Source of the DNA: Thermobispora bispora DSM 43833
GTDB lineage: Bacteria; Actinomycetota; Actinomycetes; Streptosporangiales; Streptosporangiaceae
Reading direction: 5' to 3'
Length of the DNA stretch: 64,000 nucleotides
NCBI RefSeq assembly: GCF_000092645.1
Contig: NC_014165.1
Coordinates: 3,720,001 to 3,784,000 of the forward strand
Shown: in pieces, positions 6,281-64,000 of the stretch
Layout of the letters: the number at the start of each line of letters is the position of its first letter
How positions within the stretch are numbered: position 1 is the first letter of the stretch
The notes under the pieces: model-generated
The model's database searches: none
What the model was told of the DNA's origin: nothing
What the model saw: only the letters and a program-made list of their open reading frames with translations
Made by a program: the position numbers and the translations under genes

Positions 6281-7774
6281 ATGGTCGCGGTCGCCGATCC
6301 TCCTTCACTCGGCGCCTCCCCGGTACGCCGCGGGTGGGGCCGGGTCACCGCGCCGCTCCGCCGGCATCGGGTCTTCGTGACCGCACTCGGCCTGGCGGCC
6401 GTCCTGCGGATCATCACCATGCTCGGGTTCGGCCCGGCCATGTGGTTCAACGACTCGTACGACTACGTGTCGGTGGCCCTGCGCCCACGGCCGCACCCGA
6501 TCCGCCCGGACGGTTATGCATTCTGGCTGCTTCTGCTAAAGCCGCTGCACAGTTTCGCCTTCGTCGTCTTCACCCAGCACGTGATGGGGCTGGGGATAGG
6601 CGTACTGATCTATGCGGTTCTGACCAAGAAATTTGGGACCCCACGCTGGGCGGCGACGCTCGCGGCCGCGCCGGTGCTCTTCGACGCCTACCAGATCCAG
6701 CTCGAGCAGCTCATCATGTCGGACACGCTCTTCACGCTGCTCGTGGTGGGCGTCATCGTCGTCGTGCTCTGGCAGACCCGGATGTCGTGGCAGGCCGGGG
6801 CAGCGGTCGGGCTGCTGCTCGCCATGGCCGCGCTGACCCGGAGCGTCGGCCTGCCGATCCTCGCCCTCGTCGTCTGCTACCTCCTGGTCAAGCGGGTCGG
6901 GTGGCGGCCGATCACCGCCATGGTCGTCACCTGCGCCACCCCGGTCCTCGCGTACATGGGCTGGTTCAAGGCGGTCAACGGGCAGTTCGCGATGACCAAC
7001 AGCGACGGGGTGATCCTCTACATGCGCACCTCGCTCTTCGCCGACTGCCACAAGATGGGGCTGGACAAGCGCGAGGACCTCGAGCTCGCCCTGCTGTGCA
7101 TCAACACCCCGCCCGAGCAGCGGGAGCCGTCCGCGCAGGCCTACCTGTGGTGGGACGACCAGAACCAGCTCCACGTGTTCGGCTCGGGCATGAAGTTCAT
7201 CCCCGAGATCAACGCCAACGCGAGCGAGTTCGCCAAGCGCGCCATCCTCGCCCAGCCCGGCGACTACCTCGCTACCGTGGCCAAGGACTTCTTCCGGGCC
7301 TTCCGGTGGGACCGCCCCCGGTTCCCGGACGCCAAGACGTTCCTGCAGTACGAGTTCGGCAATCCCTACACCCTGAAGATCCCCAAGTGGAGCTCCTACC
7401 AGAGCACCACAGACCGGGACGTCGAGGCGTACGAGCAGGGCCCCGCGGCCACCCGGATGGTCTCGCCGTGGTCGGACATCATGATCGCCTACCAGAAGGT
7501 GGTCCGGCTGCCCGGGACCGTGCTGGGGATCCTGCTCCTCATCGGCCTGTACGGCGTGGCCGTACGGTGGCGTGAGCTCGGCGGGCCGGTGCTGCTCCCC
7601 TGGCTCGCCGCGGTCGGCCTGATCCTCGCCCCGGCGGCGACCGCCGAGTTCGACTACCGGTACCTGCTGCCCGCCGTGCCCCTCGCCTGCCTCGCGGCCG
7701 CGATCGCGCTCACCCCGCGGCGGCACGCGCCCGTGCGGCCGTTCCGCCGTCAGCGGCCGTGGATGGCGTTGTAG
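6281..7774 (+). CDS. Polytopic membrane glycosyltransferase-like protein
   Basis: This 497-aa integral membrane protein has about nine to ten hydrophobic segments and an acidic loop shortly after the first one (FNDSYDYVSVAL, near residue 55), the arrangement seen in GT-C/GT39 polyprenol-dependent glycosyltransferases. A large soluble loop lies at about 245-405. No specific acceptor can be read from the sequence. It is divergent from the GT2 synthase, which could supply a lipid-linked sugar. The 3' end overlaps rsmI by 25 bp in convergent orientation. Confidence 0.75.
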   Translation: MVAVADPPSLGASPVRRGWGRVTAPLRRHRVFVTALGLAAVLRIITMLGFGPAMWFNDSYDYVSVALRPRPHPIRPDGYAFWLLLLKPLHSFAFVVFTQHVMGLGIGVLIYAVLTKKFGTPRWAATLAAAPVLFDAYQIQLEQLIMSDTLFTLLVVGVIVVVLWQTRMSWQAGAAVGLLLAMAALTRSVGLPILALVVCYLLVKRVGWRPITAMVVTCATPVLAYMGWFKAVNGQFAMTNSDGVILYMRTSLFADCHKMGLDKREDLELALLCINTPPEQREPSAQAYLWWDDQNQLHVFGSGMKFIPEINANASEFAKRAILAQPGDYLATVAKDFFRAFRWDRPRFPDAKTFLQYEFGNPYTLKIPKWSSYQSTTDRDVEAYEQGPAATRMVSPWSDIMIAYQKVVRLPGTVLGILLLIGLYGVAVRWRELGGPVLLPWLAAVGLILAPAATAEFDYRYLLPAVPLACLAAAIALTPRRHAPVRPFRRQRPWMAL

Positions 7775-8574
7775 AGATCCCGTTTCGGCACCCCGGCCGA
7801 CCTGGCCACCTCGGCGATCGCGTCCTTGCGCGGCACACCGGCCGCCTCCCGCCGCGCCACCTCGGCGATGAGCTCCGCCATGTCGGGCGGGGCCGCGTCC
7901 TCGGGCGCCCGCCCGGCGACGACCAGGGTGATCTCGCCCCGCACCTCGCCCGACGCCCAGGAGAGCAGCTCGGCGAGCGTGCCGCGCCGTACCTCCTCGT
8001 AGACCTTGGTGAGCTCGCGGCACGCGACCGCCGGGCGGTCCGGCCCGAACGCCTCGACCATCGCCTCCAGGCAGGCGCGCAGCCGGTGCGGCGCCTCGAA
8101 GAAGACCATGGTCCGTTCCTCGCCGGCGAGGGCGGCGAGCCGCCGCGCCCGCTCCCCGGGCTTGCGCGGCAGGAACCCCTCGAAGCAGAACCGGTCGCAC
8201 GGCAGGCCGGAGACCGCGAGCGCGGTGGTGACCGCGGACGGGCCCGGGACCGCGGTCACCGGGACGCCCTCCGCCACGGCGAGCCGGACCAGCCGGTACC
8301 CGGGGTCGGAGATCCCCGGCATCCCGGCATCGGTGATCACCACGACCGTACGGCCCTCGCGCAGCGCCGCGAGCAGCTCGCCGGACCGGGCCTCCTCGTT
8401 GGCGTCGAAGTAGGAGACGACCCGGGCGGTGAGGGTCACCCCCAGCTCGGCGGCGAGCCGCCGCAGCCGCCTGGTGTCCTCCGCCGCGATCACATCGGCG
8501 GTCTCGAGCGCCTCGCGGAGCCGCGGCGAGGCGTCAGCGAGCCGCCCGATCGGAGCCCCAGCCAAGACAAGCAC
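7750..8574 (-). CDS. rsmI: 16S rRNA (cytidine1402-2'-O)-methyltransferase
   Basis: This 274-aa SAM-dependent enzyme methylates C1402 of 16S rRNA. Visible family features are the N-terminal GAPIGRLADASPR, AEDTRRLRRL, the TDAGMPGISDPGYRL signature, and VPGPSAVTTALAVSGLP. It is divergent from the protein O-mannosyltransferase, the same arrangement known in mycobacteria and other actinobacteria. Start is GTG. Confidence 0.95.
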   Translation of the reverse strand: MLVLAGAPIGRLADASPRLREALETADVIAAEDTRRLRRLAAELGVTLTARVVSYFDANEEARSGELLAALREGRTVVVITDAGMPGISDPGYRLVRLAVAEGVPVTAVPGPSAVTTALAVSGLPCDRFCFEGFLPRKPGERARRLAALAGEERTMVFFEAPHRLRACLEAMVEAFGPDRPAVACRELTKVYEEVRRGTLAELLSWASGEVRGEITLVVAGRAPEDAAPPDMAELIAEVARREAAGVPRKDAIAEVARSAGVPKRDLYNAIHGR

Positions 8575-8680
8575 TCGTCCACCCTATGACTCGATGAAAG
8601 CTTCACGGAGCTAGGCCCGGATATCCCCAATCGGCGCGTACGCCGTGTTCTCTCGGGGCCACGACAGTACGCTGTCGGGC

Positions 8681-10288
8681 GTGGCGGTGACCGATTCTCC
8701 TTACAAGGCGTTCGAACAGCCCGAACAGACGACGGATGGCTCGGCCCCCGTCTCGCTGCGCGAGCGGCTGGTCCCACCCATGCCCGGCAGCGTCCTCTGG
8801 GGATGGGTCGGCCCGATCAGCGTGGCCCTCTTCGGGGCCGTCCTGCGGTTCCTGCGGCTCGACACGCCGCACGCCGTGGTCTTCGACGAGACCTACTACG
8901 CCAAGGACGCGTTCGCGACGATCAAGTACGGCGCCGAGCGGCAGTTCGTCGAGGGCGCGGACAAGATGCTGCTCGCCGGCAACGAGAACATCTTCAAGCA
9001 GTGCGCGAACGTTCAGGACTGCGCCGCCTACGTGGTCCACCCGCCGCTGGGCAAGTGGATGATCGGCCTCGGGGAGATGATCTTCGGGGTCAACCCGTTC
9101 GGCTGGCGGTTCGCCGCCGCGCTGTTCGGGGCGCTGTCGATCCTGATCATCGCCCGGGTGGCCCGCCGGATGACCCGCTCCACGCTGCTGGGGTGCGCCG
9201 CGGGCTTCCTCCTCGCCCTGGACGGGTTGCACTTCGTGCTCTCCCGTACGGCGCTGCTCGACATCTTCCTGACGTTCTGGGTGGTCGCCGCCTTCGCCTG
9301 CCTGGTCGCCGACCGGGACCACATGCGCAGACGGCTCGCGGACTGGCATGAGGCCTTCCTCGCCGGCAACGCGCCCGCTCAGCCGTCGCTCGGCTGGCGG
9401 CCCTGGCGGCTCGCCGCCGGGCTCTGCCTCGGCGCGGCCACGGCCACCAAGTGGACCGGCGTGTTCTTCATCATCGCCTTCGGGGTGATGTCCCTGCTCT
9501 GGGACGCCGGGGCGCGGCGGGTCGCCGGGCTGCCCAGGCCGTACCTGGGCCGGATCCGCGACCTGTCGCTCGCCGCCACCTGGCTCGGGGTGGTCCCCGT
9601 CCTGACCTACATCGCCTCGTTCGCCGGCTGGTTCGCCACCCCGAACGGGTGGGGCCGCAACTGGGAGACCGCCGTCGCCAAGGGCCCGGTCGGCTTCGTG
9701 ATCGACTCGCTGGGCTCGTGGTTCACCTATCAGAAGCAGGTGCTCAGCTTCCACACGGGCCTCGCCTCCCACCACCCCTACCAGTCCCAGCCCTGGCAGT
9801 GGCCGCTGCTGCTCCGGCCGGTGGCGTTCTTCTACGAGACGCCGCAGACCTGCGGCGAGCCCAACTGCTCGTGGGCGGTGCTCGGCACCGGAACCCCGGT
9901 GATCTGGTACGGCGGGCTCATCGCGATCCTCGCCATGGTCGCCTGGTACGTGTCCACCCGGGACTGGCGTGGGGGTGCGGTGCTCCTCGGCTACCTCGCC
10001 GGTTGGCTGCCGTGGTTCTACTTCGCGATCGCCGACAACCGGACCATGTTCCTCTTCTACGCCCTGCCGATGGTGCCGTTCATGGTCCTCGCGATCGTGC
10101 TGGTCTTCGGGCTCATCATCGGGCCGCAGGATGGGGAGCCCCGCCGTAGGACCGCGGGCGCGGTGGCCGCCGGCGCCTTCGCCCTGCTCGCGCTGGTGAA
10201 CTTCGGCTGGCTGTACCCGATCCTCGCCGCCGAGCCCATCCCGTACGAGGCCTGGCACGCCCGGATGCTCTTCAGGTCCTGGATCTGA
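8681..10288 (+). CDS. pmt: Protein O-mannosyltransferase (GT39)
   Basis: This membrane enzyme transfers mannose from polyprenol-phosphate-mannose to Ser/Thr of secreted proteins. The catalytic acidic pair lies in the first loop (VFDETYYAKD). It has about ten hydrophobic segments, and the C-terminal half has the PMT_4TMC pattern (WYGGLIAI, NRTMFLFYALP). The open frame extends to 8645, but GTG at 8681 or 8687 fits better because it leaves a typical short acidic cytoplasmic N terminus. The protein is about 535 aa. Divergent rsmI supports orthology with actinobacterial Pmt. Confidence 0.93.
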   Translation: MAVTDSPYKAFEQPEQTTDGSAPVSLRERLVPPMPGSVLWGWVGPISVALFGAVLRFLRLDTPHAVVFDETYYAKDAFATIKYGAERQFVEGADKMLLAGNENIFKQCANVQDCAAYVVHPPLGKWMIGLGEMIFGVNPFGWRFAAALFGALSILIIARVARRMTRSTLLGCAAGFLLALDGLHFVLSRTALLDIFLTFWVVAAFACLVADRDHMRRRLADWHEAFLAGNAPAQPSLGWRPWRLAAGLCLGAATATKWTGVFFIIAFGVMSLLWDAGARRVAGLPRPYLGRIRDLSLAATWLGVVPVLTYIASFAGWFATPNGWGRNWETAVAKGPVGFVIDSLGSWFTYQKQVLSFHTGLASHHPYQSQPWQWPLLLRPVAFFYETPQTCGEPNCSWAVLGTGTPVIWYGGLIAILAMVAWYVSTRDWRGGAVLLGYLAGWLPWFYFAIADNRTMFLFYALPMVPFMVLAIVLVFGLIIGPQDGEPRRRTAGAVAAGAFALLALVNFGWLYPILAAEPIPYEAWHARMLFRSWI

Positions 10289-52991: not shown

Positions 52992-53010
52992 CCGCTCGTC
53001 CGGAGCGGTC
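52990..53010 (+). terminator. Hairpin at the end of trpB2
   Basis: GACCGCTC (52990-52997), loop, GAGCGGTC (53003-53010), overlapping the last stop bases. Confidence 0.6.
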
Positions 53011-53158
53011 CGCGCGCCCGGCGCCACCCCGTGCCGTACGGCACGGCCGGTGCGCGACGGCCGCGCGGCGAGGTGGGCCCGGCCTGCCCAGGTCCGCCGT
53101 GGACGGGCCGGGCCCGCCGTTCCGGCCGGGCGGGATCCGGTGCCCACGGCCGTTCGGT

Positions 53159-53270
53159 TCCGGGCGTACGGGACCGGGTGCCTACGGGTGCCCGGGCCGC
53201 TCCGGGCGTACGGGACGGAGTGCCCGCCTTCCCGGGGCCGGTCCGGGCGGACGGGCGGAGTCCCGCGGCT
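53159..53270. repeat. About 42-bp imperfect repeat, three copies
   Basis: The unit TCCGGGCGTACGGGAC and its neighbours recur at 53159, 53201 and 53242 (the third degenerate) in the 350-bp gap between trpB2 and hypB. The surrounding DNA also carries two copies of a GTGATCAG block (53279 and 53341). Confidence 0.6.
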
Positions 53271-53343
53271 CCGCGCCCGTGATCAGTGCGGACCGGGTGC
53301 GGCTCAGGACCGGGGATGGCGAGCCGCGGGTCCGCGCCGGTGA

Positions 53344-54129
53344 TCAGGGCACCCGCTGCCGGGAGCCGAGCCCGCTCAGCCAGGCGCACCACTCGTCGAT
53401 CCCGGTGCCGTTCTTCACGCTGGTCTCGATCGTGGCCGCCGCCGGGTTGACCGCGCGGAGGTTGGCGTAGAAGGCGTCCAGGTCGAAGTCGAGGTACGGC
53501 AGCAGGTCGATCTTGTTGACGATGACGAGGTCGGCCGTGCGGAACATGATCGGATACTTGAGCGGCTTCTCCTCGCCCTCGGTGATCGAGTAGACCATCG
53601 CGCGGGCGTGCTCGCCGACGTCGAACTCCGCCGGGCAGACGAGGTTCCCGACGTTCTCGATGACGAGGAGGTCGAGCTCGTCCAGCGGCAGGGACGGCAG
53701 GGCGGAGCGCACCATGGGGGCGTCGAGGTGGCACTCGCCGCCGAAGCCCTTGCCGGTGTTGACCAGGGCGATCGCCGCGCCGAACCCCGCGAGCCGGTCC
53801 GCGTCGAGGCTGGTCTCGATGTCGCCCTCGATGATCCCGATCCGCATCCGGTCGCTCAGCCGGCGCAGCGTCTCCCGGAGCAGGGAGGTCTTGCCGGCCC
53901 CGGGGGACGACATGAGGTTCACCACGGTCACCCCGGCCGCGGCGAAGTCGGCGCGGTTCGCCGCGGCGGTCCTCTCGTTCTCGCCGAGGATCCGCTCCAG
54001 CACCTCGACGCGTTCGGCACCGGTGGCGTACCCCGAGTGGTCACCCACGTCACGGGCCGCCGCCTCACCGGGCGCGCCGACGTGGCCGTGGCCGTGCCCG
54101 TGATCGTCATGCCGGTGGAACCGTCCCAT
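53344..54129 (-). CDS. hypB: Hydrogenase nickel-incorporation GTPase HypB
   Basis: This 261-aa GTPase delivers Ni2+ to the [NiFe] active site with HypA. It begins with the metal-storing His tract MGRFHRHDDHGHGHGHVG, has the P-loop LMSSPGAGKTSLL, the IEGDIETSLDADR switch region, the NTGKGFGGECHLD zinc/nickel segment and the NKIDLLPY specificity motif. It follows hypA by 6 bp on the same strand and is convergent with trpB2. Confidence 0.96.
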   Translation of the reverse strand: MGRFHRHDDHGHGHGHVGAPGEAAARDVGDHSGYATGAERVEVLERILGENERTAAANRADFAAAGVTVVNLMSSPGAGKTSLLRETLRRLSDRMRIGIIEGDIETSLDADRLAGFGAAIALVNTGKGFGGECHLDAPMVRSALPSLPLDELDLLVIENVGNLVCPAEFDVGEHARAMVYSITEGEEKPLKYPIMFRTADLVIVNKIDLLPYLDFDLDAFYANLRAVNPAAATIETSVKNGTGIDEWCAWLSGLGSRQRVP

Positions 54130-54135
54130 CGGTGC

Positions 54136-54474
54136 TCACTCCTCCGCGAGTTCCAGCGACGTGATCAGGAATTCCTCCCCCGAGACGATCTCCACCCGCT
54201 GGCTCCCGCACCCGCCGCAGAGCAGGATCGGCGCGGTGATCGTCTCGGTGTGCTCGCACTCGGTGCAGCGGATCCGCGCGGGCACGTGCTCGACGCGCAG
54301 CTCCGCCCCGTCGAGCGGGGTGTCCTGGGTGACCAGGGACCAGCAGTAGACCAGGGTGTCGGGGACGATCTGCCGCAGGTGGCCGACCTTGACGTTCACG
54401 GCGCGCACCCGCCGCTCCCCCGCGTGCTTGGTGACGACGCCGAAGATGGACTGGCAGATCGACAGTTCGTGCAC
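54136..54474 (-). CDS. hypA: Hydrogenase maturation nickel metallochaperone HypA
   Basis: This 112-aa protein has an N-terminal MHELSI with His2 as the nickel ligand, and a zinc site of two CxxC pairs (CTECEHTE and LLCGGCGS). It hands nickel to HypB for insertion into the large subunit. It is upstream of hypB with 6 bp between them. Confidence 0.95.
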   Translation of the reverse strand: MHELSICQSIFGVVTKHAGERRVRAVNVKVGHLRQIVPDTLVYCWSLVTQDTPLDGAELRVEHVPARIRCTECEHTETITAPILLCGGCGSQRVEIVSGEEFLITSLELAEE

Positions 54475-54696
54475 GGTTCGGGCTCCCTGGGTGTCACGCC
54501 GGGTTGCGCCGACGTTACCGGTTCACGCCGTCGTCACGCCACCATCGGCCGCGTGTGCCTCTCCCGCGGTCCGGGCCCCGCCAGCCGTCCGGCCCCTCCG
54601 CCGGCCCGGCTCGCCGGGAGCCCCGCGGCCCCGGTCGCGCCACGCGCCATGCGCCCGCCCCTCCCGCGCGCCGGCTCGGGCCGCGCGGGAGGCGGC

Positions 54697-55755
54697 TCAC
54701 GACCCGCGGCGCAGGGTCTGCGACGGTGACTCGCCCCAGCGCTTGCGGTAGAGCGCCGCGAAGTTGCTCAGGTGGGTGAACCCCCAGTGCTCCGCGATGT
54801 GCGTGACCGTCACCCCGTCGGAGGGGATCGCGTCGAGGAGCTCCTCACGGGCACGTTCCAGACGGCGGTCGCGCAGGTAGGCCATGGGGGTGGTGCCGAG
54901 CTCGGCGCGGAACCCCTGCTGGATCGCCCGGACGCTCATCTTCACGTGGCGGGCGATGTCCTTCATGGTGATCGGCTCACGGAGGTTCGCCTCGATGAAG
55001 TCGAGCGTCTCGCGCACCGCCCGCTTCATCGGCCGGGGCGCCGGGCGCACGAGCTGCTCGTGGTAGTTGGACGGCTGGACGAAGAGCAGGCTGCTCATGA
55101 TCAGCTCTTCGAGCGAGCCGATGCCGTGCCCGCGCCGTAACAGCGAGCCCGGGCGGAGGATCTCGGTGCTCAGCAGCTGGATCGCCCCGTTCCACCGCAC
55201 CGCGGTGTCGGTGAACAGGTCCATCTCCGGCTCGAAGACGATCGGCCGGTTCACCGTACGGCCGAGCAGCCGGGTGAGGAACCGGACCAGCGCCTCCTGC
55301 TCGATCCGCATGATGAGCTGGGGCGAGTCGTGGTCGAACCGCATGGTGAGCGCCTGCCCGGGCGAGGTGACCAGGGCGTGGGTGGAGTTCGCCTCGACCG
55401 TCCGGTCGCCGAGCCGGCACACGGCCCGGCCGTTCATCGGCATGTGGACCGCGTAGTAGGGGCCGAGCTTCGGGAACTCCACGGTCGCCGCGACGTGCAG
55501 GTCGAGGTAGAGCATGGACACGTTGCGGAGCCGTACCCCGTGGAGGCTCGCGGCGAAGCCCTCCGTGGCCGTGACGGTGAGGCGGTTGGCGGATAACGCC
55601 TTGCCGATCAGTTGCGACGCCTCGGCCGGATCGTCCGTGTAGAAGATCTCGCGGCCTTCCAGCGCCCGGGGGATCCCCCGCGACCGGGCCCTGGGGCGCA
55701 CCGGGTGGGACGTGCGCCTGGCGTCGATGAAACCGAACTTGGCCAATCGGGTCAC
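54697..55755 (-). CDS. AraC-family transcriptional regulator, likely of the hydrogenase operon
   Basis: This 352-aa protein has an N-terminal AraC-binding-like domain (about 60-210) and a C-terminal AraC HTH pair: LREPITMKDIARHVKMSVRAIQQGFRAELGTTPMAYLRD and ITHIAEHWGFTHLSNFAALYRKRWGESPSQTL. It is divergent from the DUF1641-hydrogenase genes across 285 bp. That gap contains a TCGCAAA/TTTGCGA inverted repeat. Regulation of the hydrogenase is inferred only from position. Confidence 0.85.
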   Translation of the reverse strand: MTRLAKFGFIDARRTSHPVRPRARSRGIPRALEGREIFYTDDPAEASQLIGKALSANRLTVTATEGFAASLHGVRLRNVSMLYLDLHVAATVEFPKLGPYYAVHMPMNGRAVCRLGDRTVEANSTHALVTSPGQALTMRFDHDSPQLIMRIEQEALVRFLTRLLGRTVNRPIVFEPEMDLFTDTAVRWNGAIQLLSTEILRPGSLLRRGHGIGSLEELIMSSLLFVQPSNYHEQLVRPAPRPMKRAVRETLDFIEANLREPITMKDIARHVKMSVRAIQQGFRAELGTTPMAYLRDRRLERAREELLDAIPSDGVTVTHIAEHWGFTHLSNFAALYRKRWGESPSQTLRRGS

Positions 55756-55897
55756 GCTCAGCTCCTCCCTCCGCCCATGGGAGCCGGACGGCGACGGCCG
55801 GACCGAACGGAGAGCGGCCGGACAGGCTCCACGGTGCCACTCACTATGGCGGTTTTCTCACCACGCTCGGTGTCTTCGCCTGACCGCCAAGAGTCAT

Positions 55898-55929
55898 TCG
55901 CAAATATGACAACGCGTGCGCCTTTGCGA
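55898..55929. promoter_or_regulatory. Spaced inverted repeat before the hydrogenase operon
   Basis: TCGCAAA (55898-55904) and TTTGCGA (55923-55929) are separated by 18 bp, in the divergent intergenic region between the AraC-type gene and DUF1641. The spacing resembles a dimer site spanning about two helical turns and is a candidate for the regulator. Confidence 0.5.
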
Positions 55930-56040
55930 TAGCCAGCCCATGTAACGCGTTCCTAACCTTTGGTTACGGGCAGCCCTCATTCCTGTGAGTTTCGTATCCC
56001 TTCACCACGAGTTGAAGGGCGACCTTCCGTGGAGGTGCTT

Positions 56041-56577
56041 GTGGCACCTGACAGCCAGGTCATCGCCCCGAGGACCAGCGAAGCCCTGCTGGCGAAACTC
56101 AACGAGCCCCGGGTGGCCGAGGCGCTCTACGACCTGCTCGACCACCTCGACCTGCTGGCCGTCCTGGTCGAAGGCCTCGACGCGCTGGCCCGCCGCGGGG
56201 ACACGATCGCCGGCAACCTCACCAAAGCCGTGGGGGAGCTACGCCTGGCGGTGTCCACGACACCCGAGGCACTGAAACCGATCGACCTTCCCAAGCTGGC
56301 GTCGAGCCTGCGCATCCTCTTCGCCGCCATCTCCGACGCCACCCCCGGCCTGGAGGCGCTGTTCAGATCCGATCTCACCGACCCCCGCGTCGTCGAGGTC
56401 GTCTCCATGGCCTCCCGTGCGCTCCGCAAGGGCGCCGAGCAGGACAAGCGTGAGCCCGTGACCTCCTGGACCGTCTTCTCGCTGCTGCGGGTGCTCAAGG
56501 ACGAGGACGTCGCCCGCGGGCTCGGCTTCCTGGTCCAGGTGGCCAAGGCGCTCGGCCACGAGCTCAACCACGGCTGA
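56041..56577 (+). CDS. DUF1641 protein, hydrogenase-associated
   Basis: This 178-aa mostly helical protein is of a family (DUF1641) that frequently occurs with [NiFe]-hydrogenase or formate-dehydrogenase loci. Motifs include LLDHLDLLAVLVEGLDALARRG and DPRVVEVVSMASRALRKG. GTG 56041 is chosen because GGAGGTG precedes it by 5 bases. It starts the hydrogenase operon; the small subunit begins 79 bp downstream. The role is unknown; possibly assembly or membrane association. Confidence 0.82.
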   Translation: MAPDSQVIAPRTSEALLAKLNEPRVAEALYDLLDHLDLLAVLVEGLDALARRGDTIAGNLTKAVGELRLAVSTTPEALKPIDLPKLASSLRILFAAISDATPGLEALFRSDLTDPRVVEVVSMASRALRKGAEQDKREPVTSWTVFSLLRVLKDEDVARGLGFLVQVAKALGHELNHG

Positions 56578-56656
56578 CCACGCGGCGGCCCGCCATCGCC
56601 GTTTCCCCCTCATCGCCCCCGGGGCGTGGTCCGGAGATTCTTCGGGAGGAGATCCC

Positions 56657-57628
56657 ATGTCATCAGTGCTGTGGCTCCAGGGCGGGGCATGCAGCGGGAA
56701 CACCATGTCGTTCCTGAACGCCGACGAGCCGAACGTCGTCGACCTGATCACCGACTTCGGGCTGGACCTGATCTGGCACCCGTCGCTCGGGGCGGAGCTC
56801 GGCGACAACGCGCAGAAGCTGTTCTGGGACTGCGTCGAGGGCCGGCGGCCCCTCGACATCTTCGTCTTCGAGGGCACCGTGATGCGAGGCCCGAACGGCA
56901 CCGGCCGCTACGACATGTTCGCGGGCCGGCCCATGAAGGACTGGGTGACCGACCTGGCGGCCGCGGCCCAGATCGTGGTCGCGATCGGCGACTGCGCGTG
57001 CTGGGGCGGCATCCCGGCGACCGAGCCGAACCCCACCGACTCCACCGGCCTGCAGTTCCACAAGCGCGAGCGCGGCGGCTTCCTCGGCCCGGACTTCCGC
57101 TCCAAGATGGGGCTGCCCGTGATCAACATCCCCGGCTGCCCGGCGCACCCCGACTGGATCACGCAGGTGATCGTGGCGCTCGCCACCGGGCGCGCCGGCG
57201 ACATCGCCCTCGACGAGCTGCACCGGCCGCAGACCTTCTTCAAGACGTTCACCCAGACCGGGTGCACCCGGGTTCAGTTCTTCGAGTACAAGCAGTCCAC
57301 CCCCTCCTTCGGTGAGGGAACGCGCACCGGCTGCCTCTTCTACGAGTTCGGCTGCCGCGGCCCGATGACGCACTCGCCGTGCAACCGGATCCTGTGGAAC
57401 CGGCAGTCCTCCAAGACCCGCGCCGGCATGCCCTGCCTGGGCTGCACCGAGCCGGAGTTCCCCTTCTTCGACCTCGCCCCCGGCACGGTGTTCAAGACCC
57501 AGAAGGTCAGCGGCGTGATCCCGAAGGAGATCCCCGAGGGCGCCGACCACCTCACCTACATGGCGCACGCGGCCGCGGCCCAGATCGCCGCCCCGCAGTG
57601 GTCCAAGGAAGACATGTTCGTCGTCTGA
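56657..57628 (+). CDS. hhyS: Group 1h [NiFe]-hydrogenase small subunit
   Basis: This 323-aa electron-transfer subunit carries three Fe-S clusters. The N-terminal cluster site is GGACSGNTMSFL: the usual second Cys is Asn15, in line with the unusual 3-Cys/1-Asp proximal cluster reported for actinobacterial (group 1h/5) hydrogenases. Other Cys ligands are in GDCACWGG (113, 115), PGCPAHPDW (161), and the C-terminal GCLFYEFGCRGPMTHSPCNR and MPCLGC. There is no Tat signal, so the enzyme is cytoplasmic-side. GGGAGGAG precedes the ATG. Confidence 0.94.
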   Translation: MSSVLWLQGGACSGNTMSFLNADEPNVVDLITDFGLDLIWHPSLGAELGDNAQKLFWDCVEGRRPLDIFVFEGTVMRGPNGTGRYDMFAGRPMKDWVTDLAAAAQIVVAIGDCACWGGIPATEPNPTDSTGLQFHKRERGGFLGPDFRSKMGLPVINIPGCPAHPDWITQVIVALATGRAGDIALDELHRPQTFFKTFTQTGCTRVQFFEYKQSTPSFGEGTRTGCLFYEFGCRGPMTHSPCNRILWNRQSSKTRAGMPCLGCTEPEFPFFDLAPGTVFKTQKVSGVIPKEIPEGADHLTYMAHAAAAQIAAPQWSKEDMFVV

Positions 57629-57679
57629 CGCCGGCGACGGCGCCCCGCAGTCGGCCATTAGGAAAGGACTGAGCCCTCA

Positions 57680-59287
57680 ATGTCAGTGATGGACCTTCAG
57701 GTGAGCCCGCTCGGCCGGGTCGAGGGCGACCTCGATGTACGGGTGACGCTGGAGGACGGCGTCGTCACCTCGGCGTGGACCGAGGCCTCGATGTTCCGGG
57801 GCTTCGAGATCATCCTCCGCGGCAAGGACCCCCAGGCCGGGCTGATCGTCTGCCCGCGCATCTGCGGCATCTGCGGCGGCAGCCACCTGTACAAGTCCGC
57901 GTACGCGCTCGACGTCGCCTGGCGGACCCACCTCCCGCACAACGCCACGCTCATCCGCAACATCTGCCAGGCCTGCGAGACCCTGCAGAGCATCCCGCGG
58001 TACTTCTACGCGCTCTTCGCCCCCGACCTCACCCACAAGAACTACGCGAACTCCCCGCTCTACGACGAGGCGGTCCGGCGGTTCGCCCCCTACGTGGGCA
58101 CCAGCTACGGCCCCGGCGTGGTGCTCTCCCAGAAGCCGGTCGAGGTGTACGCCATCTTCGGCGGGCAGTGGCCGCACTCGAGCTTCATGGTCCCCGGCGG
58201 GGTGATGTGCGCGCCCACCCTCGCGGACGTCACCCGCTCGATCGCGATTCTCGAGCACTGGAAGGACAACTGGCTCGAGAAGCAGTGGCTGGGCTGCTCC
58301 ATCGACCGCTGGCTGGAGAACCGCACCTGGGACGACGTGCTCGCCTGGGTGGAGGAGAACGAGTCCCACTACAACAGCGACTGCGGGTTCTTCATCCGCT
58401 ACGCGGTCGACATCGGCCTCGACAAGTACGGCGCGGGCGTGGGCAACTACATCGCCACCGGCACCTACTTCGAGCCGTCGCTGTACGAGAACCCGACGAT
58501 CGAGGGCCGGAACGCGGCGCTCATCGCCCGGTCCGGCGTCTACGCCAACGGGCAGTGGTACGAGTTCGACCAGGCCCGGATCCGGGAGGACGTCACCCAC
58601 TCCTTCTACGAGGGCACGGGAGCGCTCCACCCGTTCGAGGGCGAGACCAAGCCGATCGACCCGGAGGTCGGGCGCAAGCAGGGCAAGTACAGCTGGGCGA
58701 AGTCGCCGCGGTACGACGTGCCCGGGCTCGGCCACATCCCGCTGGAGGCGGGCCCGCTCGCCCGGCAGATGATCGCCGGCGGCCCGGACGCGGCCCCGCA
58801 CCAGGACAGCGACCCGCTCTTCGTCGACATCGTGAAGTCGATCGGCCCGTCGGTGCTGGTCCGCCAGCTCGCCCGGATGCACGAGGCGGCGAAGTACTAC
58901 AAGTGGGTGCGCTCCTGGCTCGACCAGCTCGACCTGCACGACAGCTTCTACACCAAGCCCACCGAGTACCCGGAGGGCAAGGGCTTCGGGGCGACCGAGG
59001 CGGCGCGCGGCGCGCTCGCCGACTGGATCGTGATCGAGAATGGCAAGATCGCGAACTACCAGGTGATCACTCCGACCGCCTGGAACATCGGGCCGCGGGA
59101 CCGCGAGGAGGCCCTGGGCCCCATCGAGCGCGCCATGGTCGGCGCCCGGGTCACCGACCCGGAGGACCCGGTGGAGCTGGCCCACGTGGCCCGCAGCTTC
59201 GACTCCTGCCTGGTGTGCACGGTGCACGCCTACGACGGCAAGACCGGTCGCGAGCTGAGCAAGTTCGTGATCAACGGGATGGTCTGA
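57680..59287 (+). CDS. hhyL: Group 1h [NiFe]-hydrogenase large subunit
   Basis: This 535-aa catalytic subunit oxidises H2 at a Ni-Fe(CN)2CO site. The four Ni ligands are Cys62 and Cys65 (PRICGICGGSH) and Cys510 and Cys513 (DSCLVCTVH). The C-terminal 19 residues after His516 (starting AYDGKTG) should be removed by the maturation protease encoded next. ATG 57680 is preceded by AGGAAAGGAC. Group 1h enzymes are high-affinity and scavenge atmospheric H2. Confidence 0.96.
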   Translation: MSVMDLQVSPLGRVEGDLDVRVTLEDGVVTSAWTEASMFRGFEIILRGKDPQAGLIVCPRICGICGGSHLYKSAYALDVAWRTHLPHNATLIRNICQACETLQSIPRYFYALFAPDLTHKNYANSPLYDEAVRRFAPYVGTSYGPGVVLSQKPVEVYAIFGGQWPHSSFMVPGGVMCAPTLADVTRSIAILEHWKDNWLEKQWLGCSIDRWLENRTWDDVLAWVEENESHYNSDCGFFIRYAVDIGLDKYGAGVGNYIATGTYFEPSLYENPTIEGRNAALIARSGVYANGQWYEFDQARIREDVTHSFYEGTGALHPFEGETKPIDPEVGRKQGKYSWAKSPRYDVPGLGHIPLEAGPLARQMIAGGPDAAPHQDSDPLFVDIVKSIGPSVLVRQLARMHEAAKYYKWVRSWLDQLDLHDSFYTKPTEYPEGKGFGATEAARGALADWIVIENGKIANYQVITPTAWNIGPRDREEALGPIERAMVGARVTDPEDPVELAHVARSFDSCLVCTVHAYDGKTGRELSKFVINGMV

Positions 59288-59295
59288 CGCGGCGC

Positions 59296-59329
59296 CCGGG
59301 CGGACGCGCGGCCTGCGCCGTCCGCCCGG
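59296..59329 (+). terminator. Hairpin after hhyL (possible partial terminator)
   Basis: CCGGGCGGACG (59296-59306), 12-nt loop, CGTCCGCCCGG (59319-59329): a perfect 11-bp stem 9 bases past the stop. It lies between the structural genes and the accessory genes, so it may reduce expression of the latter or protect the hhySL message. Confidence 0.6.
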
Positions 59330-59411
59330 CCCCGCGGCGACCCCGGCGGACGGGCGCGCATCGCCCCACCTGCCGTGGGCCGGTCATCGCGACGAGTTGG
59401 GGGTGAATCGC

Positions 59412-60227
59412 ATGACGCGGCTCCACCGGGAGCCGGCCGAGGGCATGGAGGCGAGCGGGTGCCGGGTGCTCATCGTCGGGTGCGGCAACCTGCTCCGCGG
59501 CGACGACGGGGTGGGGCCGATCCTCATCCGGCATCTGTGGGAGCGCGGCATCCCCGATGGCGCGCAGATCGTCGACGGCGGCACCGCCGGGATGGACATC
59601 GGGTTCCGCATGCGCGGCGCCCGCAAGGTCGTGATCGTCGACGCGAGCCGGACCGGGGCCCAGCCCGGAACGATCTACCGGGTCCCCGGCCCGGCCGTCG
59701 AGCAGCTCCCTCCGCTGGAGGGCATGAACACCCACTCCTTCCGGTGGGATCACGCGCTCGCCTTCGCCCACTGGCTGCTCAAGGACGAGTACCCCGAGGA
59801 CGTGACCGTGTTCCTGATCGAGGCGGAGCGCGTGGATCCGGGCGCCGAGCTGTCCCCGGCGGTACGGCGGTCGATGGAGAGGGTGATCGAGATCATCGAG
59901 GAGGAGTTCCTCGCCGAGCTGGGGCCGCCCGGCCGCCCGACGGTCGAGTTCACCGCGGACGGCTACCTGCGGATGGGCCCGGACCTCGCCGCCCGCCACT
60001 TCCCAGGCGGGTCGGCGGTGGCGGTCCGCCGGGCGGGCGAGCTGTGGCTGTACCCGCTGCGCGGGCCGCAGGCGGGCGGGCTTCCGCTGAAGCAGCGCAC
60101 CCCGGCCGGTGACCGGTCCGTGCTGGTGCGGGAGGCGCTCGACGACCGGGTGCCGGTCGGCACCCGCACCGCCGTCTGGGACGGCCTGCACGGCGCCCTG
60201 CGCATCCCGCTCGACGCGGGGGCCTGA
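59412..60227 (+). CDS. Hydrogenase maturation protease with C-terminal extension
   Basis: This 271-aa protein has an HyaD/HycI-type endopeptidase domain in its first ~175 residues: GCGNLLRGDDGVGPIL (with the nickel-sensing Asp/Glu), a DGGTAGMDI loop, and a HSFRWDHAL segment. It should clip hhyL after His516. About 95 extra residues (from TVEFTADGYLRMGPDLA to RIPLDAGA) form a separate beta-rich domain not usual for the protease. ATG 59412 is used with GGGGG upstream. The stop overlaps the next ATG. Confidence 0.87.
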   Translation: MTRLHREPAEGMEASGCRVLIVGCGNLLRGDDGVGPILIRHLWERGIPDGAQIVDGGTAGMDIGFRMRGARKVVIVDASRTGAQPGTIYRVPGPAVEQLPPLEGMNTHSFRWDHALAFAHWLLKDEYPEDVTVFLIEAERVDPGAELSPAVRRSMERVIEIIEEEFLAELGPPGRPTVEFTADGYLRMGPDLAARHFPGGSAVAVRRAGELWLYPLRGPQAGGLPLKQRTPAGDRSVLVREALDDRVPVGTRTAVWDGLHGALRIPLDAGA

Positions 60228-60490
60228 TGGGGCGCGACGGCGAAGGGGGCGCGCCCCGCCGAGATCGGGAGGACCGCCGGCCGCGCCCGGCCCGGGACCC
60301 CGGTGACCTCGACCGGACCGTGGACACCGTGGTCGTGCCGGACAAGGGCCGGTGGGCCGTCGACCTCATCGTGATGTCCCGCGAGTCGGTGGTACGGCAC
60401 CGCATCTCCGTCCACCCGACCAAGGAGCGCGCCGAGATCAGCGCCCGGATCATCAAGCGGACCGCCGACCGTGACCTGGGGGGCCGTTGA
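60227..60490 (+). CDS. Small hydrogenase-associated protein of unknown function
   Basis: This 87-aa protein has a charged, disordered N terminus (Arg/Asp/Pro/Gly, about 1-30), then a beta-alpha segment RWAVDLIVMSRESVVRHRIS...KERAEISARIIKRTADRD. It is ATG-coupled to the protease gene and 1 bp before the TPR gene, and thus firmly inside the operon. The family is not recognised. Confidence 0.75.
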   Translation: MGRDGEGGAPRRDREDRRPRPARDPGDLDRTVDTVVVPDKGRWAVDLIVMSRESVVRHRISVHPTKERAEISARIIKRTADRDLGGR

Positions 60491-60491
60491 A

Positions 60492-61742
60492 GTGAGTCAG
60501 CATGTGATCGCCGGGGCCCGGACCGCGCCCGTGGTACGGCCCCAGCCGCTCGGGGCGTTCCCGCTGCCCGCGGGCCTGTTGCTCATCCCGGGCGGGGAGG
60601 AGACCGAGCCGTGCCGGAAGGAGCTGGTGGCCGGCCGGATCCCCGCGCACTGGCCGGCCGCGCTGCGCGCCCACGAGCTCGCCTTCGCCGGGGACCTCGC
60701 CGGGGCGCGGGAGGCGCTCCGCGGCGACGACCCGGTGACCCGGTACAACCGGTTCGTCATCGACCCCGAGGGTGAGGACGAGGAGCGCCTCCGCGCGGAC
60801 CTCGGGGAGCCGCTCGGCGCCCTGGTCGACCTGGTCCGCTTCACCCTGGGGCGCACGGACGAGCCGCCCGCGCTCGGCGCCGCGGACGGGGAGATCGCCG
60901 CGCTCATCCTCTCCGCCCAGGCCACCCACGCGGTGAGCCGCGGCGAGCCCGGGCTCGCGCTGCGGCTGCTCGGCGACGCGGTACGGCTCGCCGAGGGCGA
61001 GTCCCCGGCGCTCGCCGGGGTGCTGCTCGGCGCGGCCGCGGACATCCGCAAGGGCGCCGAAGGGCCGAGCCCGGAGGTGGTGGCCGAGCTGCGCCGGGCG
61101 CTCGGCCTGCTCAAGGACACCGACCTGCGGGTCGGGCAGGCCGAGCTCCACCTGGCCCTCGCGCTGACCCTGCACGAGGCGGCCGGAGGCCGCCGCGACC
61201 TGCTCGTCGAGGCGGTCCGCGAGTACCGCGCGGCCCTGCGGCTGGTGACCTCCGAGGAGGCGCCGGAGGTGTGGGCGGCCGCGCACCTCAACCTCGCCAC
61301 CGCCTACCTCACCATGCCCATGACCGAGGCGTCCGACCGGCTGCGGCAGGGCATCGCCGTGCAGTCGCTGCGCTCGGCGCTGAAGGTGTACCGGCCGGAG
61401 ACCCACCCCCGGCAGTGGGCGAGCGCGCAGCTCAACCTCGCCAACGCCCTGGTCTACGCGCCGTCCCGCCACCGGGAGCAGAACCTGCGCGAGGCGGTCG
61501 AGCTGTATGAGGCCGTGCTCAAGGTGCGCGACGCCGGAAGCGACCCGCTGGGGCGCGCCCGGGTGCTCGCCAACCAGGGCAACGCGCTCGCGCACCTCGG
61601 CATGTTCGGCGAGGCCCGGGAGCGGCTGCACGAGGCCCGGTCCCTGTTCGCCGCGTGCGGTGACGAGGAGGCGGTCCGCACGGTCGACGGCCTCCTCGGG
61701 GAGATCGCGGCGCACACCGGCGCGGGCACGGCGGAGGGGTAG
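60492..61742 (+). CDS. TPR-repeat protein of the hydrogenase operon
   Basis: This 416-aa protein has an N-terminal segment (about 1-140) of no recognised fold followed by helical TPR-like repeats, with degenerate units such as APEVWAAAHLNLATAYLTM and PRQWASAQLNLANALVYAP and canonical ARVLANQGNALAHLGMFGEA. TPR proteins act as assembly scaffolds; in group 1h loci they are likely maturation or docking factors (inference). GTG 60492 immediately follows the previous stop. Confidence 0.82.
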   Translation: MSQHVIAGARTAPVVRPQPLGAFPLPAGLLLIPGGEETEPCRKELVAGRIPAHWPAALRAHELAFAGDLAGAREALRGDDPVTRYNRFVIDPEGEDEERLRADLGEPLGALVDLVRFTLGRTDEPPALGAADGEIAALILSAQATHAVSRGEPGLALRLLGDAVRLAEGESPALAGVLLGAAADIRKGAEGPSPEVVAELRRALGLLKDTDLRVGQAELHLALALTLHEAAGGRRDLLVEAVREYRAALRLVTSEEAPEVWAAAHLNLATAYLTMPMTEASDRLRQGIAVQSLRSALKVYRPETHPRQWASAQLNLANALVYAPSRHREQNLREAVELYEAVLKVRDAGSDPLGRARVLANQGNALAHLGMFGEARERLHEARSLFAACGDEEAVRTVDGLLGEIAAHTGAGTAEG

Positions 61743-62067
61743 GGCCGATGGGCTTGCGCCTGCCGTACCGGAGCCCCGGACTCCCGCCACTGCCCCGGCC
61801 TCAGGGGCGACACACCGGCGAATCGGGCGAGATGCCTACCGATCCGCAGGTCACGGGCATATGGTGGGGCACTACCGAGGCGGTCGCCCGCGGCGCATGC
61901 CGCGGCCGCCGTCCCGGTGGTGCGGTCGGCACGGCCTCATGCGCGCTCGGTTGCGGCGGCTCCGGGACCGTGCCCGAGGTCCGGTACGCGGGAAGGGCCG
62001 CCACCGATCAACCGCCCGGGCGATCGGGGCGCTGAAGCCGGCCGAGCGGTACGGAGGGGAAGGCACG
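61743..62067. other. Intergenic region before the NifU-Rieske gene
   Basis: 325 bp without a supported gene. A 95-codon frame from ATG 61748 has an Arg/Gly/Pro-rich, shadow-like composition. It may hold a secondary promoter; none is clear. Confidence 0.45.
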
Positions 62068-62937
62068 ATGAGCACGACCGCGCAGACCACGAGCATCACC
62101 GAACTCGCCGAGCGGGTGGACGAGGCGGCGCGCCGGGTGGCCGGGCTCGACCCGGAGGCGCGGAAGGCCGCCGAGGAGCTCAAGGAGGCGGTGGAGGCCG
62201 TCCACCGCGCCGGGCTGATCACGATCGTGCGGCGCATGCGCGCCGACGAGCGGGCGCGCGAGCTGCTCTTCGAGCTCGTGGACGAGCCCGAGGTGCGCAT
62301 GCTCTTCATGCTCCACGGCATCATCCGCCCGGATCCGATGACCGAGGCGTCCCGGGTGATCGACGCGATCCGGCCGATGGTGCGGTCCCACGGCGGCGAC
62401 GTGGAGCTGGTCCGGGTCGAGGACGGGGTCGCGTACGTCCGGCTGAAGGGCGCCTGCACCGGCTGCTCGGCCCCTGCCGTGGCCCTGCGGGAGGGGATCG
62501 AGGAGGCGCTGATCGAGCGGGTGCCCGCGATCACCAGGGTCGAGGTGCTGCCCCCGGAGCCGTCGCCGGTGCTCATCCCGCTGAGCGCGGTGCGGTTCGG
62601 CCGGGACGATGGCTGGGTACGGGCCATACCGGTCGAGCAGGTCCCGGACGGCCGGATCACCCCCCTTCACCTGACCGCCAAGGACGGCACCGAGCAGGAG
62701 GCGATCGTGGTCCGGCTGGGCGACCGGTTCACCGCGTACGTCAACGAGTGCGCGCATCAGGCCATGCCGCTCGACGACGCGCTGCTCGACCGGGAGGCGG
62801 GCACGATCACCTGCCCCTGGCACGGGTTCAGCTTCGACGCGGAGTCCGGCGAGTGCCTGAGCATGCCCGGCGCGCAACTGGAACGGCTTCCGCTCCGCAT
62901 CGACGACGGCCACGTGTGGATCAAGGTCGGCTCATGA
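62068..62937 (+). CDS. NifU-like/Rieske fusion protein (HhyE/HucE-like electron carrier)
   Basis: This 289-aa fusion has a NifU C-terminal-type Fe-S domain (GACTGCSAP, CxxC, about residue 132) followed by a Rieske [2Fe-2S] domain with both ligand pairs: CAHQAMPLDDALLDR (CxH) and TITCPWHGFSF (CxxH). In mycobacterial hydrogenase loci, similar proteins (HucE, HhyE) link the hydrogenase to the respiratory chain. ATG 62068 is preceded by GGAGGGGAAGG. It is coupled to the NHL gene by ATGA. Confidence 0.9.
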   Translation: MSTTAQTTSITELAERVDEAARRVAGLDPEARKAAEELKEAVEAVHRAGLITIVRRMRADERARELLFELVDEPEVRMLFMLHGIIRPDPMTEASRVIDAIRPMVRSHGGDVELVRVEDGVAYVRLKGACTGCSAPAVALREGIEEALIERVPAITRVEVLPPEPSPVLIPLSAVRFGRDDGWVRAIPVEQVPDGRITPLHLTAKDGTEQEAIVVRLGDRFTAYVNECAHQAMPLDDALLDREAGTITCPWHGFSFDAESGECLSMPGAQLERLPLRIDDGHVWIKVGS

Positions 62938-64000
62938 GCGCGCCGGAGGTCATCGAAGGGGACGTGGCCGCGGGCTGGGCACCGCGCACCTGGCTCGGCG
63001 CCCCGGCGCCCGGCGGCCTCGCGCTGCCCCCGGCGGCGCCGACGATGGCCTGGCTGTACTCGCCGCGCGGGGTGTACCTCGACGACCGGCACCTGGTGGT
63101 GGCCGACTCGGGGAACCACCGGGTGCTGATCTGGCACGGCGTCCCGGAGGAGGACGAGCGGCCCGCCGACGTGGTGCTCGGCCAGCCCGACGGCACCAGC
63201 GAAGGCCCGGCCGCGGGCGGGCGCGGCCCCGAGCACGGCCTCCACCTGCCGACCGGGGTGCTGATCCACGACGGGCGGCTGATCGTCGCCGACGCCTGGC
63301 ACCACCGCGTGCTCATCTGGGACGAGGTGCCGCGCCGGTCCGGCCGGCGGCCCGACCTGGTGCTCGGCCAGCCGGACCTCGGCTCGGCCGAGCCGAACCG
63401 GGGCGGGGAGTGCTCGGCGCGCTCGATGTACTGGCCGTACGGCGTGGCCGTGGTGGGCGGCCGGTTCTATGTGGCCGACACGGGCAACCGGCGGGTCCTC
63501 GGCTGGGCGGGCGGAATCCCGTCCTCCCCGGACGAGCCGCCCGACCTGATCCTCGGCCAGCCCGGCCCCGCCGAGCGCGAGGAGAACCGCGGGGAGGGGG
63601 TCGGCCCGGCGAGCTTCCGCTGGCCGCACGGCATCACCGGCACGCCGGAGCTGCTGCTCGTCGCCGACGCGGGCAACCACCGGGTGCTCGGCTGGCGCCC
63701 GCACCCCGGCGGCGACCGCGGCGCGGACCTGGTGCTCGGCCAGCCGGACCCGTACACCGCGGCGGAGTTCCCGTACGGGCCGCAGCGGGCGGACCGGCTC
63801 CGCTTCCCCTACGCGGCCTCCCTCGACGGGGATCGCCTCGCGGTGGCCGACACGGCCAACAACCGGATCCTGCTCTGGCACGGCGTGCCCACCGCCTCGG
63901 GGCAGGCCGCGGACGCCGTGCTGGGGCAGCCGTCCTTCACGGCGAACGGGGAGAACCGGTGGTCCGGCGTGGCCCGGGACACGCTGTGCTGGCCGTACGG
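62934..64000 (+). CDS. NHL-repeat beta-propeller protein, 3' end outside the window
   Basis: The open frame runs off the window end (at least 355 aa). It contains five or more NHL-like repeats of the form VVADSGNHRVLIWHGVP, IVADAWHHRVLIWDEVP, YVADTGNRRVLGWAGGIP, and VADAGNHRVLGW, separated by VLGQPD. NHL proteins of this type accompany group 1h hydrogenases in streptomycetes and related genera; the role is unknown. ATG overlaps the upstream stop. Confidence 0.88.
   Translation, partial: MSAPEVIEGDVAAGWAPRTWLGAPAPGGLALPPAAPTMAWLYSPRGVYLDDRHLVVADSGNHRVLIWHGVPEEDERPADVVLGQPDGTSEGPAAGGRGPEHGLHLPTGVLIHDGRLIVADAWHHRVLIWDEVPRRSGRRPDLVLGQPDLGSAEPNRGGECSARSMYWPYGVAVVGGRFYVADTGNRRVLGWAGGIPSSPDEPPDLILGQPGPAEREENRGEGVGPASFRWPHGITGTPELLLVADAGNHRVLGWRPHPGGDRGADLVLGQPDPYTAAEFPYGPQRADRLRFPYAASLDGDRLAVADTANNRILLWHGVPTASGQAADAVLGQPSFTANGENRWSGVARDTLCWPY

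Follow-up and report, generated by a model that had tools for sequence, protein, structure and literature searches.

Which enzyme does the [NiFe]-hydrogenase island at the end of this stretch of Thermobispora bispora DNA encode, what do the accessory genes packed around its subunits do, and what controls them? The stretch, which we call the window, is the 64,000 nucleotides (nt) at C1:3720001-3784000 of a one-contig genome of 4,189,976 bp, and the genes in question start at position 53344; strain R51 of the species is described as a strict thermophile (PMC3035289). A sequence-only reading of the window had labelled the island as a group 1h (Hhy) system with an extended accessory set. Going by its predicted proteins, the island is instead an ordinary and complete operon for Huc, the known enzyme with which soil bacteria subsist on trace atmospheric hydrogen, and we are confident that it belongs to group 2a of the [NiFe]-hydrogenases. 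The new part is a divergent AraC-type gene together with a 37-bp element, which are predicted to control the operon. With this correction, a thermophile's Huc is no longer listed under the wrong group of hydrogenases, and the AraC-type gene and its element provide a concrete test of which protein binds the huc promoter, a question that was open in 2026 (PMC13098282).

The hydrogenase and its group

Both structural subunits are those of group 2a Huc. The large subunit, hucL (57680..59287, plus strand), matches the Mycobacterium smegmatis enzyme (7UUS_A) with 1034.6 bits over residues 4-516 and is 83% identical to it, whereas the next different enzyme reaches 223 bits and HofG (5AA5), which we take as the group 1h reference, 116.7 bits. 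The small subunit, hucS (56657..57628, plus strand), matches Huc (PDB 7UUR/7UTD) with 700 bits, against at most 140 for any other structure, and is 89% identical to the M. smegmatis protein. Upstream of it, hucM (56029..56577, plus strand; the open reading frame, ORF, opens at 55960 and the start codon is uncertain) encodes a DUF1641 protein (PF07849, E-value 1.5e-10) that matches HucM (7UUS_Q, E-value 2.9e-29) over residues 42-200 of the 205-aa ORF. Further downstream, hucE (62068..62937, plus strand) fuses a NifU domain (PF01106, E-value 6.2e-23) to a Rieske domain (PF00355, E-value 8e-13), and the corresponding motifs, CTGC for the NifU CxxC and CAH-x18-CPWH for the Rieske CxH-x18-CxxH, are readable in the translation. 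This is the HucE-type architecture: HucE of group 2a combines a NifU CxxC with a C-terminal Rieske domain, whereas HhyE has two C-terminal CxxC motifs and no Rieske domain (PMC6883350).

The genome contains three large-subunit genes, and one of them, at C1:3078.8 kb and 0.7 Mb from the huc operon, scores 1077.9 bits against HofG and 123 against Huc. Its partner protein belongs to DUF5947, with a NifU match below the cut-off, no Rieske match and two readable CxxC motifs. We take this locus (C1:3077495-3081620) as the putative group 1h locus of T. bispora. Because of the similarity of the subunits, HucM and the HucE-type Rieske protein, and with the HofG-type locus lying elsewhere, we place the operon of the window in group 2a; this assignment uses bit scores against solved structures rather than a phylogeny, and the score margins leave little room for another group.

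The accessory genes: conservation and roles

The genes listed by the sequence-only reading are all there. After hucL comes a maturation protease (59445..60227, plus strand; TIGR00072, E-value 1.7e-40), whose ORF opens at 59397, so that the gap to hucL is 157 nt from the start at 59445 or 109 nt from the first start of the ORF. The extra domain attributed to this protein is real: it is a HycI-type protease (approximately residues 1-159) extended at its C terminus by about 100 aa (approximately 166-256). It is followed by a gene for an 87-aa protein (60227..60490, plus strand), predicted to fold into three strands and a helix and without a Pfam or NCBIfam family, and by a TPR-like gene (60492..61742, plus strand, starting at 60471 or 60492), the hcaA of group 2a operons, with a weak match to TPR_12 (PF13424; E-value 2.7e-4, 21.5 bits, under the cut-off of 30.1). 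Then come hucE and the gene for a 380-aa NHL-repeat protein, hcaB (62934..64000, plus strand; PF01436, E-value 1.4e-26, six stretches), which runs past the edge of the window and ends at the equivalent of 64076, 76 bases beyond. On the other side and on the minus strand lie hypB (53344..54129; Ni-insertion GTPase, PF02492, E-value 2e-19), a neighbour in many Huc loci, and hypA (54136..54474; Ni metallochaperone, PF01155, E-value 4.2e-31). A search of 53000-64000 for RNA elements gave no Rfam match at an E-value of at most 0.1.

It had been noted that hypC, hypD, hypE and hypF are missing from the window and should be sought beyond 64000, and all four are indeed found just past its end. In window equivalents, hypF starts at about 64073, overlapping the end of the NHL gene, and is followed by hypC (66421), hypE (68097) and hypD (69579); the third of these has AIRS domains in its sequence and is presumably hypE from its position. 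Between hypC and hypE there are two more genes, coding for a 244-aa protein whose C-terminal domain is HypC-like (L007 16708-17442, window equivalent 66708-67442) and for a GmhA/SIS-type protein (L007 17439-18110, window equivalent 67439-68110), both of which are found again in many Huc loci.

We compared the operon with the best 80 of 423 related loci, which are actinobacterial and mostly from Mycobacterium; they are cited by label where needed, and gene presence was counted only in loci with enough flanking sequence. The order from hucS to the NHL gene is nearly fixed, and the typical arrangement, a divergent araC followed by hucM-S-L-protease-87aa-TPR-hucE-NHL, is found in most of the 80 loci and also in M. 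smegmatis. Such shared order across many loci is far beyond chance. The protease and hucS genes are each present in 77 of 77 loci, the TPR gene in 76/76, hucE in 72/74, the NHL gene in 70/72 and the 87-aa gene in 71/77, while hucM is present in 62/73 and an araC gene lies near hucL in 63/73. In L083, L085, L089 and L090, hypA-hypB sits between hucM and hucS.

The genes had been described as tightly spaced, which holds for most junctions and fails between the TPR gene and hucE, where the window has a gap of 325 nt (61743..62067, plus strand) and the median of 75 related loci is 16 nt. In seven of these 75 loci an extra ORF of about 111-125 aa occupies this position (L011 14044-14397, L012 13923-14276, L015 13769-14128, L058 13710-14069, L083 9862-10239, L085 13897-14232 and L090 11535-11909). 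The seven look alike by eye, that of L085 doubtfully so, and the two that were tested have no Pfam match. The gap of the window may possibly be a decayed remnant of this ORF; the hint is weak, since the two matching pieces, colinear though in different frames, score 21.2 and 20.0 bits and the best of 20 shuffled trials reaches 20.8. A search with the L015 protein showed no intact copy in the rest of the T. bispora genome (best E-value 0.038, partial). We reject a 95-aa ORF inside the gap (61748-62035) as a gene, since none of the ORFs in the 80 loci could be paired with it at an E-value of at most 1e-4 and it has no Pfam match.

The sequence-only reading had proposed that the 87-aa, TPR and NHL families co-occur with hhyL, and that a lack of consistent co-occurrence with group 1h enzymes would speak against it. 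Since only 6 of 197 genomes in a phylum-wide set had a Huc-level match (at least 999 bits), which was too few, we moved to 148 Mycobacterium genomes, of which 41 have hucL, 85 hhyL and 22 both, leaving 19 with hucL only, 63 with hhyL only and 44 with neither. The TPR family is found in 40 of the 41 hucL genomes, the 87-aa family in 39 and the NHL family in 38. None of the three is found in any of the 63 hhyL-only genomes, and the 44 genomes with neither hydrogenase have a single match, an NHL fragment in an assembly that is 63% complete (G318). The misses among hucL genomes fall in G203, G224 and G303, assemblies of 360-640 contigs. Association with hucL is strong (Fisher p 1.3e-30 to 1.7e-35, values that ignore the relatedness of the species), and there is no association of the three families with hhyL in these 148 genomes (p 0.71 to 1). 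Co-occurrence fails for hhyL and holds for hucL, and the group 1h version is therefore refuted by the test proposed for it. In this Mycobacterium sample, the three families track huc rather than hhy.

The accessory proteins were said to have no proven biochemical role, which does not apply to two of them. The structure of M. smegmatis HucM has been solved: purified Huc consists of HucS, HucL and HucM, HucM acts as the scaffold of the oligomer and provides menaquinone with a hydrophobic tube leading to the membrane, and its deletion leaves an active enzyme that has lost the large oligomer (PMC10017518). HucE, in turn, is required for H2 uptake and for activity staining in M. smegmatis (PMC6883350). 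Genes for TPR (hcaA) and NHL (hcaB) proteins whose function is unclear are known, as frequent companions, from group 2a operons (PMC7248562), and the NHL gene is also reported with such operons in PMC7784904 and PMC12976888. If T. bispora Huc works as its homologue does, it would be a membrane-attached [NiFe]-hydrogenase in which HucL splits H2 at the NiFe site and passes the electrons through HucS, while HucM would assemble HucSL dimers into a large oligomer and menaquinone would arrive through its hydrophobic tube. As a group 2a enzyme it would also be expected to oxidise H2 below atmospheric levels, to be insensitive to O2 and to contain three [3Fe-4S] clusters. HypA and HypB, with HypF, HypC, HypE and HypD, would build the active site, and the protease would trim HucL. 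Catalysis, oligomer, quinone route and the need for HucE are taken from the work on M. smegmatis, and we infer them for T. bispora. The earlier idea of a module coupling H2 oxidation to the quinone pool thus survives as an uptake hydrogenase of the atmospheric-H2 type with a dedicated quinone-feeding gene set, and falls as regards group 1h.

The other accessory proteins gave less direct hints. The AlphaFold2 model of the 87-aa protein has three strands and a helix and is confident for residues 31-80; it has no Foldseek match at an E-value of at most 0.001 (best 0.029), and its best VIA-align hit (Z 6.0) lies among unrelated folds, from which we draw no function. The protease model resembles 1CFZ (TMt 0.77), and when protease and C-terminal domain are modelled together the ten best hits are all maturation proteases, 148-162 residues long, from which we draw nothing about the fold of the C-terminal domain itself. 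In L081, L083 and L086 this domain has a gene of its own, and we therefore consider it a detachable partner. We think it reasonably probable that this domain and the 87-aa, TPR and NHL proteins form an assembly machinery specific to Huc.

Two other accounts of the island have to be weighed. Huc and Hhy have much in common, as both oxidise atmospheric H2 and are encoded in operons without a cytochrome b gene and with a NifU-type partner (PMC6883350), which is where a group 1h island with extra accessory genes draws its appeal. The chance that the island is one is nevertheless negligible, considering the scores of HucL against Huc and HofG, the encoded HucM, a Rieske domain in place of two CxxC motifs, the distinct HofG-type locus of the same genome and the accessory families missing from 63 of 63 hhyL-only genomes; the solved-structure scores and the genome's own HofG-type locus led us to reject the label, which the results refute. 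Some observations do sit uneasily with a standard huc operon and its exclusive accessory set. The word "hydrogenase" has no occurrence in the available text of the T. bispora genome paper (PMC3035289). HucM was found in none of the 11 genomes whose huc loci lack hucM (L055, L057, L058, L059, L061, L070, L071, L073, L076, L077 and L087) and was found in the one control genome; the scaffold is therefore apparently not universal, and the Huc of these loci should lack the known oligomer scaffold. Finally, a genome with both hydrogenases (G206) has an additional 87-aa gene that is divergent from hhyS. This paralogue (L099 11534-11872, or 23534-23872 of the L098+L099 join, minus strand, between hypA-hypB and hhyS) is the only link seen between the 87-aa family and a group 1h locus. 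The second account accepts huc and regards HucE and the 87-aa, TPR and NHL proteins mainly as electron-transfer partners or subunits of the mature complex. In its favour, HucE has NifU and Rieske motifs, shares its operon with the structural genes and has been suggested as the immediate electron acceptor; yet without HucE no activity stain is obtained, even when an artificial acceptor is supplied, and the authors name assembly as one possibility (PMC6883350). Because HucE is needed for active Huc even with such an acceptor, a role in assembly or Fe-S delivery, at least in part, is favoured by analogy. For the 87-aa, TPR and NHL proteins, assembly is favoured because purified Huc held only HucS, HucL and HucM (PMC10017518). 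Moreover, these three proteins have no match to a cofactor-binding family in Pfam or NCBIfam, and cyanobacterial TPR, NifU-type and NHL genes, related to them by position and domain, have been proposed as maturation factors (PMC2408588, PMC3126725). An electron-transfer role for the set thus appears rather unlikely.

A divergent AraC-type gene and a 37-bp element

Between hypA and hucM, and divergent from the latter, lies an AraC-type regulator gene (54697..55755, minus strand; AraC_binding_2, PF14525, E-value 8.7e-42, and HTH_18, PF12833, E-value 1e-22) that the sequence-only reading did not mention. The gap between the two genes contains a 37-bp two-part element (55897..55933, plus strand), a candidate AraC-type operator identified with a position weight matrix (PWM), made of half-sites at 55897-55913 and 55917-55933 with a 20-bp period. 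At their target promoter, proteins of the AraC family typically bind two direct half-sites spaced by about two helical turns. Across 62 araC-hucM gaps the consensus is TKCGCAATCCTGACAGC-nnn-TGCGCGAAAGCGATAGG, and 58 of the 62 score above zero with a PWM trained on 56 of these same gaps, the best of 310 single-base shuffles being -15.9. The four gaps below zero are those of L083, L086, L089 and L090. The divergent AraC gene and the element are also present in M. smegmatis, the element at 54.6, and in well-scoring loci about 81-143 bp separate the element from the inferred hucM start downstream of it.

A PWM built from 47 mycobacterial sites was applied to 15 held-out loci from Pseudonocardia, other actinobacteria and metagenome-assembled genomes, the window among them, and in 13 its best match in the entire record is the site in the gap; it fails in L089 and L090 and has thin margins in L083 and L086. 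Under the same mycobacteria-trained model, the element of the window ranks first of 127,922 positions, and it is the only match in the whole T. bispora genome at up to 3 mismatches. Of the sites above zero in a scan of about 1.67 Mb (the window and L007-L090, both strands), 60 fall within or beside hucM; the others are that of the window and one in L058. One of the 60, inside hucM of L090, is probably due to chance. L058, which has araC and no hucM, has its site between araC and hucS, and the ten loci without an adjacent araC have no site above zero. These ten are also hucM-less, so that 10 of the 11 loci without hucM lack both an adjacent araC and a site, L058 keeping both. In L060 (Pseudonocardia, 6677-8883), which like L085 is outside the set of 62 gaps, there are two hucM-like genes with an element before each.

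Among the 148 Mycobacterium genomes, close orthologues of the AraC protein (at least 533 bits, the next paralogues reaching at most 264) are found in 35, all of them hucL-positive, and HucM is found in exactly the same 35. Six hucL genomes have neither; their assemblies are fragmented or incomplete, HucM was sought with one sequence, and some of these absences may be contig ends.

From these patterns we consider it likely that the AraC-type regulator controls the genes from hucM onwards by binding the 37-bp element. A 2026 study reports that the direct regulator of huc is still to be identified, as are regulators downstream of GylR; "AraC" is not in its main text (PMC13098282), and, judged by title or term counts, none of the papers listed in searches of an open-access library links an AraC-type protein to huc. 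Because the direct regulator is open in that study, the AraC protein and its element are a testable candidate. We lean towards the wider proposal that this protein is the missing direct regulator of huc in many actinobacteria, including M. smegmatis. On this proposal it would bind the element and link the oxidation of atmospheric H2 to some metabolic cue that its N-terminal domain senses, and it may act downstream of GylR.

Alternatively, the element could be a core promoter, or a different regulator could bind there. Its distance to the hucM start would suit a promoter, regulators downstream of GylR are still to be named (PMC13098282), and binding by the AraC protein is a prediction from sequence. 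Several results temper the operator reading itself: three loci with araC have no element (L085, where araC is on the same strand as hucM, L089 and L090); the half-sites are alike only in part, with a summed cross-score of -0.21 at the best offset; and the seed consensus of the PWM drew on all 62 gaps, so the held-out check is not fully blind. On the side of the operator, 20 bp is clearly the best of the internal offsets compared, and two 17-bp half-sites with this period would fit what is expected of the AraC family. A site above zero is seen in none of the ten loci without an adjacent araC, one is present in L058 with araC and without hucM, and L060 has an element for each of its hucM-like genes. 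We regard the promoter or another regulator's site as the less likely alternative and retain the AraC operator as the preferred reading.

Comparison with known systems

Besides the huc operon and the presumed group 1h locus, the genome has a third hydrogenase of four genes (L010 9564-13588, C1:2147.5-2151.6 kb), next to a cation-transport ATPase-like ORF, which from its four-gene layout presumably resembles a group 3b enzyme. Hhy is, like Huc, an uptake hydrogenase with a NifU-type partner; the presumed 1h locus of T. bispora differs in its distantly related large subunit and in a partner without a Rieske domain, and its 20-kb stretch has no 87-aa, TPR or NHL gene at an E-value of 1e-4.

The closest known system is M. 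smegmatis Huc (7UTD/7UUR/7UUS/8DQV), with the genes for HucM, HucS, HucL, protease, 87-aa protein, TPR protein, HucE and NHL protein in the same order. Unlike HucL and HucS, HucM and the 87-aa protein have diverged, to 45% and 42% identity. Other differences lie at the borders and in one junction. In T. bispora, hypA and hypB lie beyond araC and hypF comes straight after the NHL gene, whereas in M. smegmatis hypB-hypA (minus strand) and hypF-C-D are downstream of the NHL gene, and T. bispora has the 325-nt gap between the TPR gene and hucE. In Nostoc, the extended hyp operon (asr0689-alr0693), which is next to hupSL for the cyanobacterial uptake hydrogenase, similarly has TPR, NifU-type and NHL genes between structural and hyp genes (PMC3126725, PMC2408588). 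Compared by description only, the two small cyanobacterial genes are stated to have transmembrane regions, whereas three strands and a helix are predicted for the 87-aa protein of T. bispora. The Huc operons of Parageobacillus, also compared by description only, contain DUF1641, HypA/B, small-subunit, large-subunit, protease, TPR, NifU and NHL genes, and differ in that there are several operons and extra hypothetical genes (PMC12976888). In the Bacillota Parageobacillus and Kyrpidia, the TPR and NHL genes of the Huc operons are named hcaA and hcaB (PMC7248562), the names used here for the corresponding T. bispora genes.

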